Source of the DNA: a virus | Reading direction: 5' to 3' (one strand) | Virus record (IMG/VR): IMGVR_UViG_3300035698_009402 | Location: 1 to 51,658 of that record | Length of the DNA stretch: 51,658 bases | Shown here: piece by piece, positions 37,334 to 48,133 of the stretch | Numbering within the stretch: position 1 is the first letter of the stretch | Layout: every line of letters starts with the position of its first letter | Made by a program: the position numbers and the translations under genes | Notes under the pieces: model-generated | The model's database searches: none | What the model was told of the DNA's origin: nothing | Seen by the model: only the letters and a program-made list of their open reading frames with translations

Positions 37334-39599
37334 TTGCCTCCGCCCAAGTATCTCCTACTCCAAAATCTACTTTAATAGGAGTTCCAGCTATACTTAAACC
37401 TCTATCTAGTTGAAGAAAGTCTCTAGTAATCTTAATATATTCTTCTACTAAATCTTCTCTAACTTCGCTAACAATAGAGTCGTGAACCAGTGTAAAAGGT
37501 AAAACAGCTTCTTCATATTGGTTAGCGGCTATCCAATCCATTAAATCACTAAATCCCATAAGGTTAATATCACTAGCAACACTTTGTACTAAGAAATTGA
37601 CACCACTACGTACCGCATGACCTGCTACGCCTTTATTTTTGCTCTTACTTTCAGGTAATCTTCTTTTTCTACCGTAATAACTATAGATATATGCGTTATC
37701 CTGAATAAATCTGTTACTACTATTAATAAAAGATCGTAGATTACTAGCTTCTTTGAAGTAGGTTTTAATATGTTGTTCAGCTTCTTTAACGGTAATTTCA
37801 TTACCCGGTTCACAACTTGCATTAACTTCTTCTGCAACTTTATAAGGTCCTGCCTGATACATGATACCGAAAGTAATAGCTTTAGATATCTGTCTAAGAT
37901 CGGGAAGTAACTTTTTAATATCCGCCACGTCACACGCAGGTTTGAACATTTTCTTAGCAATATAACTATGAAAATCTAGTCCGCTCTTAAAAGCTTCTTG
38001 TAAAAATGGATCATTACTTAGTACTGCTGCATAATACACTTCAGCAGTACCTAGGTCGCATTGAACAATCTTATATCCGGGTCTAGCTCGGAAAATACTT
38101 TTAACAGTTTTATCATCTCTTTGAATATTCTGATAGTTTAGAATACCACTACTAGATAGTCTACCACTAGTTGTTCCATGCAGATTAAAATTACTTCTTA
38201 ATCTACCGTCTTTATCTACACCATTTTTGATATTCATCAAATAAGTATTAAGTAGTTTACTCTTTTTTCTTAAATCTAATATAGCTTCTGCTATAGGATG
38301 TTCTAATTGTCCTAATACTTCCGCATCAGTACTTGCTACTCCTGTAGCCGTTCTTTTAGTAGGAGCTAATCCGATTATTTCAAACAATAACTTACGTAAT
38401 TGTAAAACACTATTTGGATTAAAAGGCTTACCTTGGATACTTTCTAATTCCAGTATTTCAGGACTTTTATTAATATCATATAAACAATCTTCAATATCAT
38501 CTTTTAACATAGAAATATGTTTATCTAAATCTGTTATCTCAATAGGTCCGCCATTATTTTCCATTTTCATTAGGTTTACTAATATAGGTAATAGAATATT
38601 ATAGTATAGATACTTAAATCTTTCATTTCTTTCAATTGCTGGTAAAAATTTATCCCTTAATTGATAAGTACCGTCCCCGTCCCTGAAAGCATATTCACAA
38701 AGTATTTCAGTAGGTATCATACCATAATTAAAATCGGCTAATTTAATCTTTTCTGCTCTGCAAAATTCTTTCTTGAATACATCTAATTCTTTTTCGTAAT
38801 CTCCTAGATCAGTGTATTTCATTGCTAACCCTTTTAAGCCATGACTACCTGTAGCTTCATTTAACACATAATGCATTATCATAGTATCATGGAAGTTAGG
38901 GAAAATTAATCCGTATTCATACTTTAGGAAAGCCATATCGAACTTAGCGTTATGAAAGATAGCTATTTTTTCATTAAAATAATCTTGTAATTCATCTAAA
39001 TATTGTTTAAATACTTCTGCTGTAACATATATTCCTTGATGCTTATAACAACTAAGCACAACTCCAAGTATATTACCTTTTCTAGGAGATAAACTTGTAG
39101 TTTCAATATCTACTACAACTTCACCAACTTCTTCCATTTCTTCAAGATAATCTTCAAAATCTTCACAATTAGATATATATCTATAGTCTTTGAAATTAAC
39201 TTCTATTGTATTAGTATCAGTTAATAATTGTTTTAATAATACAAAAGCTCTTAGGATATCTTCTTTATACTGAGGCTTAAATTCTACCATACTAGGATTA
39301 ATTATAGGAAAGTATAAATCTTCAATCAACATACCGTTATACTTAGTAATACCCGTCATACTCTTGTCCCCTAGTAAAGGGGGGGTATATTTTAAACTTT
39401 CGGCACCTACTGGGCAAATATAGGTATAATTCTGTAACTCTGTAGCATCTAAATCTACATTCTTTGATAATATTTTATCACGTTCTTCACTACATAAAAA
39501 AAGTATATCAATATTTATTCCGATATAATCGAAATATTCTTTAAAAATACTATATGCATCATCTGTTTTGCTAGGTAATATTATTACTGCTGTTTTCAT
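37323..39599 (-). CDS. DNA polymerase I-like, family A, with 3'-5' exonuclease
   Basis: 758 residues. After about 150 residues without a 5' exonuclease domain, the proofreading motifs are VVVDIETTSLSP, FHNAKFDMAFL and AFRDGDGTYQL. The polymerase part has motif A VQCDLGTAEVYYAA, motif B RQISKAITFGIMYQAG and motif C LVHDSIVSEV. The position matching E. coli Phe762 is Phe. The 5'-3' exonuclease is a separate gene at 25314. GAGGAA precedes the ATG. It is the replicative polymerase. Confidence 0.95.
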   Translation of the reverse strand: MKTAVIILPSKTDDAYSIFKEYFDYIGINIDILFLCSEERDKILSKNVDLDATELQNYTYICPVGAESLKYTPPLLGDKSMTGITKYNGMLIEDLYFPIINPSMVEFKPQYKEDILRAFVLLKQLLTDTNTIEVNFKDYRYISNCEDFEDYLEEMEEVGEVVVDIETTSLSPRKGNILGVVLSCYKHQGIYVTAEVFKQYLDELQDYFNEKIAIFHNAKFDMAFLKYEYGLIFPNFHDTMIMHYVLNEATGSHGLKGLAMKYTDLGDYEKELDVFKKEFCRAEKIKLADFNYGMIPTEILCEYAFRDGDGTYQLRDKFLPAIERNERFKYLYYNILLPILVNLMKMENNGGPIEITDLDKHISMLKDDIEDCLYDINKSPEILELESIQGKPFNPNSVLQLRKLLFEIIGLAPTKRTATGVASTDAEVLGQLEHPIAEAILDLRKKSKLLNTYLMNIKNGVDKDGRLRSNFNLHGTTSGRLSSSGILNYQNIQRDDKTVKSIFRARPGYKIVQCDLGTAEVYYAAVLSNDPFLQEAFKSGLDFHSYIAKKMFKPACDVADIKKLLPDLRQISKAITFGIMYQAGPYKVAEEVNASCEPGNEITVKEAEQHIKTYFKEASNLRSFINSSNRFIQDNAYIYSYYGRKRRLPESKSKNKGVAGHAVRSGVNFLVQSVASDINLMGFSDLMDWIAANQYEEAVLPFTLVHDSIVSEVREDLVEEYIKITRDFLQLDRGLSIAGTPIKVDFGVGDTWAEANEE

Positions 39600-40465
39600 A
39601 TGGTTTCCTCATTCAATGTTTGCCTTATTTCTTCTAATGTGAGATCACCTGGATCTTTGTTGAAAGGTACTCTGGCTATATTTGTTTTAATATAATTTCT
39701 CTCTAATAATTCTTTTACTTTGTGAGCACCTGCTATACCGGCCTTATCTCCGTCAAACATAACAGTTACTTCAGTACAGTTTATATTATTTAATAATTGT
39801 ATCTTAGTTTTAGTTAAGTTAGCAACTCCAAAATTACATAATGTAGAGGTGTAGCCGTGCTGCCATAGATTTAGTAAATCATATAAACCTTCCACTAATA
39901 TAACATGCTTTTTAAAGGATAATCTGTCTATAGGAAATAGAACATCACTCTTTTTACTATTTTCTGGATATCTCATATATTTAGGTCTAATACTATTAGG
40001 AATAGTATCCCTGCATTCTAGAAACTTAAGTTTCCCATATTGATAAACAGGAACACATATATACTTTTCTAAGTTATGTTTCTGAGTCCAGAAAGCTTTA
40101 AAGTCTCTCATAGTTTCATTATTTACTAATTTAACAGAACCTTCTACAGGTATTGCATCATCAGGAATAATTAAATTACTAATGCTCTTTATATTTCTTA
40201 TTTTATCTTGTAATAATTCTTTCTTAAATGTTTGATTAGTAGTTATCTCTAATTTAGTAGAGATACCTAAATGTTTTAGAAAAGATTTATAGCTACCTGA
40301 ATACCCACAACTCCAACAGTTGTATATATTTTTGGCAAGGTTAAATTGCATACTAGGACTAGTATCTTCATGTTCGGGATTTATACATTTTATCTTTATT
40401 TCTTGTACATTATTTGTTTTTATATAATTAATACCATTGTCGTCTAATATTTTAAGTATATCCAT
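39596..40465 (-). CDS. DNA primase, DnaG-like (zinc finger and Toprim)
   Basis: 289 residues from the ATG at 40465, which overlaps the radical SAM stop (TAATG); an upstream in-frame ATG at 40486 is less likely. The CHC2-type zinc finger is C-I-N-P-E-H then C-W-S-C-G at about residues 25-52. The Toprim core is HVILVEGLYDLLNL and VTVMFDGDKAG. It makes primers with the DnaB-type helicase of the same operon. It overlaps polA by 4 bases. Confidence 0.92.
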   Translation of the reverse strand: MDILKILDDNGINYIKTNNVQEIKIKCINPEHEDTSPSMQFNLAKNIYNCWSCGYSGSYKSFLKHLGISTKLEITTNQTFKKELLQDKIRNIKSISNLIIPDDAIPVEGSVKLVNNETMRDFKAFWTQKHNLEKYICVPVYQYGKLKFLECRDTIPNSIRPKYMRYPENSKKSDVLFPIDRLSFKKHVILVEGLYDLLNLWQHGYTSTLCNFGVANLTKTKIQLLNNINCTEVTVMFDGDKAGIAGAHKVKELLERNYIKTNIARVPFNKDPGDLTLEEIRQTLNEETI

Positions 40466-41325
40466 TATTTTACAAACATCCCACAACTAGCCTTAACATC
40501 ATATCCTACTCTATTTATTAACTTAACATCAGCTATTGTTTTTAGCATTTTTACATTTTCATTAATTAAATTAATATCGCTTTCTTCACTATGACCTTCG
40601 TAAGGGGGGTTGTATTGAATAATATTTACTTTAGGAACATATGGTAATTCTAACTTTTCTATAAAAGACATTATATTTTCTGTATTTTCAATACTATCGT
40701 TTTCATTCTTAATATACGCCCAATGAAATCTTATATAAGCACCTTTTTGTTCTGCTGTTTTTAAGTAATAATAAGTTTGTTCTAAATTACTAGCTTTAGG
40801 TAGCCATTTTTTTCTAAAAGTCTGATTGGTACTATAAAGACTGTGATACAGATGAGTACTATAATCTTTATGAAAATAAGAACTAAAATGCTTACTATTC
40901 ATTGATTTAGGTAATATACTAGAAATATTAAATCTAACATTATATATACCTACGTTGTACGCTAAATTTTGTAATTCATAATATAAGCTACTATTCAATA
41001 TACTACCAAAACTTAAAGGCTCTCCTCTAGCCATAAAATTGAAGTGAACTTTGGTAATTTTTTCTCTATTATCTACATTGGTTAAATTAGCTAAAGCAAT
41101 ACTGGCTTGTATTAGTAGCTCATCTAAAGTAGCACGTATTTCTTCTGTTTGTCCCGTTTGTGTTAAATGACAAAATCTACATGATCTATTACAGCCATTA
41201 TAAGTACTTAAATAGATAATAATATAATCTGATTTTCGTTGCACAAACCTACTTTCAAAAAACCCGTCTTGTTTTTCAAAAGTATAATTAACACTACTAT
41301 CTATTTTACTTCTTAATATTTCCAC
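40465..41325 (-). CDS. Radical SAM enzyme, RlmN/Cfr-like
   Basis: 286 residues with a GTG start overlapping the helicase stop (TAGTG). Cys45, Cys49 and Cys52 form the C-x3-C-x2-C cluster (YNGCNRSCRFCHLT). RlmN/Cfr landmarks follow: FNFMARGEPLSF, LYHSLYSTNQTFRKKWLP, IQYNPPYEGHS, and the methyl-carrier Cys281 in KASCGMF. The second catalytic Cys (E. coli RlmN C118, seven residues before the first cluster Cys) is replaced by Tyr38. The N-terminal helical domain of RlmN is absent. Family members methylate C2 or C8 of adenosine in RNA; the substrate here is unknown. Confidence 0.8.
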   Translation of the reverse strand: MEILRSKIDSSVNYTFEKQDGFFESRFVQRKSDYIIIYLSTYNGCNRSCRFCHLTQTGQTEEIRATLDELLIQASIALANLTNVDNREKITKVHFNFMARGEPLSFGSILNSSLYYELQNLAYNVGIYNVRFNISSILPKSMNSKHFSSYFHKDYSTHLYHSLYSTNQTFRKKWLPKASNLEQTYYYLKTAEQKGAYIRFHWAYIKNENDSIENTENIMSFIEKLELPYVPKVNIIQYNPPYEGHSEESDINLINENVKMLKTIADVKLINRVGYDVKASCGMFVK

Positions 41326-42710
41326 TATCCTATATCCCTATCACTTTCTTTACTTCCATATCTGATTTTATTAGTTACGCTTTCGTTAAGTAAATTAGAG
41401 TTACTGTTATCAATACTTACAGTATCCCAATCCATATTAATATCAAAATTAATAGCTGCTCCGTTTCTTATTTTTGCAGTATGAATATTAATACTTGTTC
41501 CACCATCTTTCGGAGGAAAGAATACAAAACTTTTATCTGCACTGTCCAAAATACCTTTAGCAAATCTAGCTTCACCAGATTCATCTATTTGATACGGACT
41601 TAATAATGTTATATCATACTTTCTAGATATTGTTTTTAAATTTTCAGCTAATTCTACTTGAGCCTTCCAATCTTTTTTATCTGGGTGACTTATTATGTTT
41701 ATATAATCTACTACAGCTAAGGTAAAATTAGGATATTTATTCTTAAATAAGTTACAATAGTGATCTATTCTGGATAATGTAAGAGACTCATCGTCAATGA
41801 TAAAAAATCTATTATCCTTAAACTTAGGCTTAGTAGCGTTATTGAATTTAAATTCAAATTGTTTAAAATCTTCGTCAGTACCACATTTACTTAATAGTTC
41901 CATATATTCTTGATACTTACTATCTTTTTGATAGAAATGATCCATCTTACCTTTAGCCATTTGTACTTTTTGACCTAGATCAATTTGGTTTTTGTATATA
42001 TCTAGAAAAGGTACTTTACTTACCATAGATACTAATCTATCATGTACTTCTTTATATCTCATTTCAATAGTAAAGAAAGCTACAGTATTTCCTCCATTAT
42101 ATCTGTGATTAGCACAATTTAAAGATATAATAGATTTACCACTACCTCTTCTACCGCCTAACATGACTAACTCTTGTAAAGCAAATCCTCCATTTTTAGA
42201 GTCAAAATGTTCACTTAATCCACTAGGATGTAGATCAAAACTATCTCCTGAAGGTATCAAATCTAAATCTGCCGCTACGTCAAAACATTCATCTTCAATA
42301 GTTATATTGTTATTTAGTTTTAGTAGATGATTTTGTAAACTATCCATAACTTCTACAGTTTCAAATTCTTCTATTTGATCTAGAAACTTATCTAAGAAAT
42401 TTAAAGTATTATCTCTAACATAATAATCTTGTAATTGAGATACTATAAATTCATTTTGTATATTAGCTACTTCATTTTCTTCAGTTAATACTTCATTCTC
42501 TAAATAATCTTGTATAAAACTATCCTTATAACTAGATAGTAATTCATCTTTGGTAGGCAGCCGTGTATTAGCACTATAGAATTTTTCTATAGTAGAAAAC
42601 AGAGTAAAAGACGATCCTGAGAAAAACTCAGCACGCATTTTACTATAAAATTCATGATTTTCATCTGTTATAAGTCTACTTAAAGCTACTTGTTGTAAAT
42701 CTAAGCTCAT
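41325..42710 (-). CDS. Replicative DNA helicase, DnaB-like
   Basis: 461 residues. An N-terminal helical domain of about 150 residues precedes the RecA-like core with Walker A MLGGRRGSGKS, then TVAFFTIEMRYKEV, Walker B FTLAVVDYINIIS, and LSPYQIDESGEARF. A hexameric helicase that works with the primase two genes downstream. GGAGGG precedes the ATG. Confidence 0.92.
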   Translation of the reverse strand: MSLDLQQVALSRLITDENHEFYSKMRAEFFSGSSFTLFSTIEKFYSANTRLPTKDELLSSYKDSFIQDYLENEVLTEENEVANIQNEFIVSQLQDYYVRDNTLNFLDKFLDQIEEFETVEVMDSLQNHLLKLNNNITIEDECFDVAADLDLIPSGDSFDLHPSGLSEHFDSKNGGFALQELVMLGGRRGSGKSIISLNCANHRYNGGNTVAFFTIEMRYKEVHDRLVSMVSKVPFLDIYKNQIDLGQKVQMAKGKMDHFYQKDSKYQEYMELLSKCGTDEDFKQFEFKFNNATKPKFKDNRFFIIDDESLTLSRIDHYCNLFKNKYPNFTLAVVDYINIISHPDKKDWKAQVELAENLKTISRKYDITLLSPYQIDESGEARFAKGILDSADKSFVFFPPKDGGTSINIHTAKIRNGAAINFDINMDWDTVSIDNSNSNLLNESVTNKIRYGSKESDRDIG

Positions 42711-47546: not shown

Positions 47547-47816
47547 CTATTCTCCAAAATCAAAAGATAATTGATCTAAATCTTTTGAATAATAATGTCC
47601 TAAAAATTTGCTAACATTTTCCAGTTTAGCAATGACATCATCTAAGTAAGCTCCTTGAATAGCGTATCCGGACTTTGTAGGAAACATTACTCCATTATCT
47701 CCATCTAGATTGTATTCTCTTATATGTATATACATACTACCCCGAAACTCACTTGCAGTTACTTTTACTCCAGTACCTAATCTTTTACTATATGCTATTC
47801 CAAAATCTTTTTCCAT
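47547..47816 (-). CDS. PC4-like single-stranded DNA-binding protein
   Basis: 89 residues. VKVTASEFRGSMYIHIREYN, then FPTKSGYAIQG and a long helix (DDVIAKLENVSKFLG) match the PC4/YdbC fold, which binds single-stranded DNA as a dimer. The ATG overlaps the stop of the Fe-S carrier gene (TAATG). It may act in replication or transcription. Fold by pattern; function inferred. Confidence 0.6.
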   Translation of the reverse strand: MEKDFGIAYSKRLGTGVKVTASEFRGSMYIHIREYNLDGDNGVMFPTKSGYAIQGAYLDDVIAKLENVSKFLGHYYSKDLDQLSFDFGE

Positions 47817-48133
47817 TAACTAAAGCTACTTCCACAACCACAAGTATTAACAGCCTTTGAATTACTAATTTGTATAGATTTATATATCTCGTTCCCTGTA
47901 TAATCAATTATACAATCTTTTAAAAAAGATAAGCTACTTTCATCAGTAATAATTTTTAAAGATTCGTCAATGAATATATAATCTTCTAATTCATCTACTA
48001 AAGAAAATTTATACTGAAATCCGGCGCAACCTCCGGTTACTACTTCTATGTTCATATATTGGTTTAATTCTAAACTAGATATATAAATTTTAAATTTACT
48101 AGTTAATTTAGGTAATAACATTTCTTCTGACAT
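47816..48133 (-). CDS. A-type iron-sulfur carrier (IscA/ErpA/HesB-like)
   Basis: 105 residues. The three ligand cysteines are present: GGCAGFQYKF near residue 35 and the C-terminal CGCGSSFS. The family carries Fe-S clusters to client proteins. Phage versions are known as auxiliary metabolic genes. Possible clients in this window are the radical SAM enzyme and the gpL-like tip. It overlaps the glycosyltransferase gene by 26 bases. AAAGGA precedes the ATG. Confidence 0.9.
   Translation of the reverse strand: MSEEMLLPKLTSKFKIYISSLELNQYMNIEVVTGGCAGFQYKFSLVDELEDYIFIDESLKIITDESSLSFLKDCIIDYTGNEIYKSIQISNSKAVNTCGCGSSFS

Follow-up and report, generated by a model that had tools for sequence, protein, structure and literature searches.

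The window, by which the whole analysed stretch of 51,658 nucleotides of viral DNA is meant, encodes an RlmN/Cfr-related radical SAM protein in which the site of the second catalytic cysteine is occupied by a tyrosine (Tyr38). RlmN and Cfr are class A radical SAM methylases; RlmN forms m2A2503 of 23S rRNA and m2A37 of tRNA, and Cfr, a multidrug-resistance enzyme, forms m8A2503. For both enzymes the second cysteine has been called indispensable, and yet a large natural clade has replaced it by tyrosine, with an arginine (Arg100) at a coupled site. This Tyr38/Arg100 variant is real and strictly conserved, and the protein of the window is not an oddity of a single phage, but belongs to an unnamed family of wide distribution. 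Since a catalytic cysteine is replaced by an invariant tyrosine, the established mechanism must run differently here. The reading that is tentatively preferred is that of an active radical SAM methylase with a Tyr38/Arg100 resolving pair, representing a third, truncated clade. No paper on the function of the Tyr-type family was found in the open-access literature. The gene, its two neighbours and the relevant codons are located as follows:

39596..40465, minus strand: DNA primase, downstream of the radical SAM gene (profile match)
40465..41325, minus strand: RlmN/Cfr-related radical SAM protein, Tyr-type short family (PHROG 27142), 286 aa
40483..40485, minus strand: codon of Cys281, equivalent to the methyl-carrier Cys (RlmN C355, Cfr C338), in ASCG[MT]F; invariant
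41017..41040, minus strand: N96-F-M-A-R100-G-E102-P103, GxGE loop; R100 in 84/84
41170..41193, minus strand: C45-x3-C49-x2-C52, [4Fe-4S] cluster ligands; invariant
41212..41214, minus strand: codon of Tyr38, resolver/general-base position (RlmN C118, Cfr C105); Tyr in 67/67 aligned and 83/83 readable members
41254..41256, minus strand: codon of Glu24, equivalent to RlmN E105 and Cfr E91; invariant in 67/67
41325..42710, minus strand: DnaB-like helicase, upstream of the radical SAM gene (profile match)

The open reading frame starts with GTG and runs from 41325 to 40465; an earlier note on this DNA had given the coordinates 40465-41325, which were reproduced, and the strand, absent from it, is the minus strand. 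The TAG stop of the helicase overlaps by one base with the GTG at which the radical SAM gene starts (TAGTG), and the TAA stop of the latter overlaps by one base with the likely ATG start of the primase at 40465 (TAATG).

A search of the window protein against Pfam gave only a weak radical SAM match. The top NCBIfam model was RlmN (TIGR00048) with 60 bits, which does not reach the curated cut-off of 290, and the Cfr models with 31-36 bits did not reach their cut-offs of 468-550 either (TIGR04432: 31.7 vs 550 bits; NF000424: 36.2 vs 530 bits). A full-length match was obtained to PHROG 27142 (E=8.7e-73, 246.8 bits, residues 5-286 on profile positions 10-300). The label of this group, 'Fe-S-cluster redox domain-containing', is a name without a tested function, and with lower scores the profile also matches Cys-type and Val-type short proteins. 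In a phmmer search against the PDB, Cfr and RlmN were the only matches, and the best match of the family profile was the Cfr chain 9p0p with 70 bits. An AlphaFold2 model built from 68 family members (pLDDT 93) begins with beta strands. The top ten PDB matches of this model in Foldseek were all of the RlmN type (nine chains of E. coli RlmN and the related 6fz6) with a TMq of 0.66-0.74, followed by generic radical SAM folds with an E of about 1e-7. Spore photoproduct lyase ranked under every RlmN chain (E about 2e-5, TMq about 0.5) and gave no sequence match in the phmmer search against the PDB. Altogether, RlmN and Cfr are the sole close sequence relatives and RlmN is the best fold relative, no other radical SAM family being closer; the homology claimed in the earlier note is backed, far beyond chance, by sequence profiles as well as by fold matches.

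The motifs named in that note, C45-x3-C49-x2-C52, GEPL (101-104), SLYSTN (162-167) and C281, are all present at these numbers. Besides the C45/C49/C52 cluster, the family has kept E102 (of GxGE), S162 (of SLH) and N239 (of NP), which we take to be SAM-site residues by analogy with RlmN structures. Both the methyl-carrier Cys281 and the activating Glu24 are invariant (67/67); in RlmN, E105 is the base that activates the methyl-carrier cysteine (PMC9692996). Among the residues at the target nucleotide, N234 and A279 are kept, corresponding to Cfr N288, which contacts this nucleotide, and to Cfr A336, the carbonyl of which contacts adenine N6 (PMC13001441). Based on the RNA-contact residues of Cfr (PMC13001441), the contacts beyond the target nucleotide are mostly lost in the family (R184, K250, Y252, H286, R327).

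The window protein contains exactly four cysteines, all of which are functional sites. The absence of the resolver cysteine and of the N-terminal domain had been proposed from the letters alone, and both proposals held. Tyr38 aligned with RlmN C118 and Cfr C105 by phmmer, by profile and in the multiple alignment, and zero residues were aligned to the HhH2 domain in 67/67 members. An alignment placing a resolver cysteine elsewhere in the active site, named in the earlier note as evidence against its assignment, was not found: there is no such cysteine elsewhere in cis, the family has only four conserved cysteines, and 11 of the 67 aligned members possess just those four. Four replacements relative to RlmN and Cfr are invariant, namely Tyr38 for C118, Arg100 for M176 (Cfr M157), Tyr164 for the His of SLH and His201 for Glu in RlmN or Ala in Cfr. 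Changes that are concerted and fixed in this way suggest that the active site was rebuilt rather than that it decayed.

The family (PHROG 27142) is monophyletic and is found mainly in jumbo phages, but also in megaplasmids and scattered bacterial genomes. In IMG/VR, 69 loci were determined, mostly from jumbo phages, at about 34-42% identity, and 21 GenBank phage records showed at least 34.7% identity, including 201phi2-1 gp434, Psa21, Phabio, CcrColossus gp283 and Brevundimonas jumbo phages. To these can be added eight plasmids, pMPPla107 and the FeN3W megaplasmid being two of them, and about 20 bacterial or archaeal contigs. Tyr38 is present in all 83 readable of 84 distinct members, while Arg100 and the C-terminus SCG[MT]F are found in 84/84 distinct full-length members. 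An alignment of 68 members, the most distant of which share 35% identity with the window protein, has 33 invariant positions. That Y38, R100, E24, C45/49/52 and C281 are strictly conserved in phage, plasmid and bacterial members alike speaks for a functional enzyme. Since 11 of 13 bacterial carrier genomes encode another protein that exceeds the RlmN cut-off, and a twelfth shows strong matches below it, the family gene is an extra gene next to a true RlmN in most of them. Members from well-studied phages (201phi2-1, Psa21, Phabio, CcrColossus) are labelled 'hypothetical', 'Fe-S-cluster redox' or 'RlmN', the last of which overstates current knowledge.

In the trees, which comprise long branches, the Tyr family formed a clade of its own with supports of 96/98 and 100/99, and RlmN and Cfr formed a separate clade with 100/99 and 100/98, the branch between the two being long. 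The sister group consists of short phage proteins that lack the N-terminal domain; together with the Tyr family and an RlmN-like protein of Klebsiella phage 05F01 they reached a support of 97/93 in a tree from which the four variable sites were excluded. Based on these trees, the family is a third clade next to RlmN and Cfr, one with a truncated N-terminus. The short sister proteins comprise Cys/Val (L246, L247, L037, L255), Cys/Cys (L248, L249, L254) or Val/Cys (L251, L253) at positions 38/100, and the Klebsiella protein (L036 5935-6864), for which the scan found no relatives in IMG/VR, shows Val38 and Glu100 with extra cysteines at 41 and 96. Parsimony on the tree requires three changes at site 38. 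Within the sister clade, the cysteine appears to have shifted from the site of RlmN C118 to that of M176 via proteins carrying both. Since the cysteine moves between sites 38 and 100, both sites probably face one pocket, in which the resolving group could be moved or rebuilt. The graded series can be regarded as a natural relocation series for the resolver cysteine, and the simplest reading would be that Tyr38/Arg100 is one solution to a rebuilt resolving site.

A comparison with known systems shows that the family shares with both RlmN and Cfr the CX3CX2C cluster, the SAM-site residues, the equivalent of E105, the methyl-carrier cysteine in the CG motif and the fold. Unlike RlmN, it lacks HhH2, carries the four replacements described above, lies outside the RlmN+Cfr clade and scores far below the RlmN cut-off. 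With Cfr, which provided the top match of the family profile, the differences are the tyrosine in place of C105, the lost N-terminal domain, the loss of most second-shell RNA contacts and the low model scores. Hence, while the cluster, the SAM site and the methyl-carrier cysteine with its activating glutamate are those of the RlmN/Cfr class, three defining features (resolver cysteine, N-terminal HhH2 domain and clade membership) are missing, which makes an RlmN annotation unsuitable.

From the missing second cysteine, the earlier note had concluded that the enzyme may perform a different reaction, act on another substrate or resolve the adduct with another residue. The cysteine is indeed missing; a different reaction does not follow of necessity, since the resolver, seen as a disulfide partner in the earlier view, is now understood as the general base for the C2/C8 proton, the removal of which brings about homolytic cleavage of the C-S bond (PMC9692996, PMC13001441). 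A tyrosine can in principle stand in for such a base. A precedent for a catalytic tyrosine is provided by the class C methylases NocN and NosN, which also transfer a methylene radical onto an aromatic ring and require an active-site tyrosine (276/251) for full activity, although the behaviour of NosN Tyr to Phe variants was unlike that expected for a direct base (PMC12871812). In contrast to the family described here, these enzymes are HemN-like, bind two SAM simultaneously and form no methyl-Cys.

The first steps would be expected to run as in RlmN and Cfr. One SAM would methylate Cys281, and a second one would be converted to the 5'-deoxyadenosyl radical, generating an S-CH2 radical on Cys281, which would add to C2 or C8 of an adenine in nucleic acid. 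Tyr38, its pKa lowered by Arg100, could then take the ring proton, leading to cleavage of the C-S bond and release of methyladenine, and the remaining Cys281 thiyl might be reduced by the cluster or via Tyr38. With the resolver seen as a general base, Tyr38 aided by Arg100 would be the best-supported substitute for it. The substrate is probably an adenosine in RNA in a less structured context than that of the 23S rRNA or tRNA bound by RlmN; DNA is possible as well. The loss of the N-terminal RNA-binding domain and of most second-shell Cfr RNA contacts weakens the case for an RNA target. By analogy with RlmN C118A and Cfr C105A/S, in which a covalent RNA-protein crosslink is trapped and stalled (PMC9692996, PMC13001441), a non-cysteine residue may fail to resolve the adduct. 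The Tyr clade and its sister series represent natural experiments on the debated resolution step, i.e. whether the resolver acts as general base or via a disulfide, and who reduces the thiyl.

Ranked second behind the Tyr/Arg methylase is a changed chemistry on the same scaffold, which we consider a serious candidate although an unlikely one. Here, Cys281 would serve as a thiol/thiyl hydrogen donor and Tyr38 as a radical relay, and the target could be a base that is damaged or modified. In spore photoproduct lyase, a cysteine and a tyrosine cooperate. The four concerted active-site changes (Y38, R100, Y164 for His, H201 for Glu/Ala) and the long branch to RlmN/Cfr fit such a change, whereas the invariant E24 and Cys281 in the CG motif are the methyl-transfer pair of RlmN, and the lyase is a far weaker match in fold (E about 2e-5 vs 6e-15).

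An RlmN-type enzyme that works without the resolver cysteine and forms a product other than m2A or m8A is rather unlikely; the product could, for example, be a Cys-methylene-nucleic acid crosslink that persists, or a new modified base in the nucleic acid of phage or host. Taken by itself and ranked third, the crosslink as end product, i.e. a lasting Cys281-nucleic acid thioether made by a single-turnover protein-nucleic acid ligase, is improbable. Trapping upon replacement of the resolver in RlmN C118A and Cfr C105A (PMC9692996, PMC13001441) would be in line with it, as would the lack of any other cysteine in the window protein; all members, however, carry an ionisable tyrosine and an arginine at the coupled site instead of Ala, Val or Ser, and a suicide role alone would not demand both. 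Slightly less probable still is the resolution of the adduct by an external thiol or a partner protein, with Tyr38 merely shaping the pocket. While this would account for the absence of the resolver cysteine in cis, no neighbour is conserved across the carriers and the invariant tyrosine and arginine would be left unexplained. An inactive, decayed RlmN copy is hardly conceivable: a domain and a catalytic cysteine are missing, but the 33 invariant positions persist among the 68 members, at identities as low as 35%, in phages, plasmids and bacteria, and the reading frame is intact with a one-base overlap to each neighbour.

A nucleic acid role had also been derived from the position of the gene between primase and DnaB, and this argument failed. 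Among the nearest relatives, 14 with helicases 53-55% identical to that of the window have kept the order HTH-DnaB-primase-PolA without the radical SAM gene; their slot between helicase and primase is filled with other sequence, with a length of 42 bp, about 0.3 kb, 0.9 kb or 2.5 kb. A replication role by location was rejected, since the same slot is empty or holds unrelated cargo. Large phages and megaplasmids carry the gene as mobile cargo; it is not part of the replication machinery. In relatives (L130, L131) the slot contains HIT, 2OG-Fe(II) oxygenase and small open reading frames, as a cargo site inside the replication operon.

The record of the window has a length of 115,658 bp and contains about 30 tRNA genes, situated at 72-107 kb. 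A tRNA as target was suggested by this and by some phages in which the radical SAM gene lies within a tRNA array. The tRNA counts showed no difference, however, with a median of 25 in carriers vs 12 in LigA-selected large-phage non-carriers (Mann-Whitney p=0.67; the carriers are not a random sample), the latter being rich in tRNAs as well. Within 6 kb of the gene, 52 tRNAs were observed vs 37 expected, a strongly clustered excess driven by few lineages. The tRNA link is not supported, the test being weak in both directions owing to the non-random carrier sample. Outside the window, the tRNA genes of the same record (G000 72,879-106,830; L151, L152) include one with the anticodon CTA (amber) at about 88,768. 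Amber recoding by this tRNA is not supported, as TAG closes 6 of 45 open reading frames of the window and reading through it would extend them by 0-19 codons.

At 47816-48133 (minus strand) the window encodes an A-type Fe-S carrier (IscA/HesB-like, PF01521). As a dedicated partner it was rejected, since PF01521 proteins also occur in relatives without the radical SAM gene. In one jumbo-phage lineage (L052 2854-4749, L046, L060, L064 and relatives) an NAD-dependent DNA ligase gene precedes the radical SAM gene; a functional link to the ligase was discarded, because the cases form a single group of relatives and the gene is missing from most LigA relatives. No conserved operon around the gene was found among the bacterial carriers, and the neighbour gene in a Planctomycete looks lineage-specific. 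One record filed as Acinetobacter phage MD-2021a (L040, CAKLQH020000017.1) looks like a bacterial chromosome, with rlmN, ndk, gcpE and hisS, and seems to be mislabelled.
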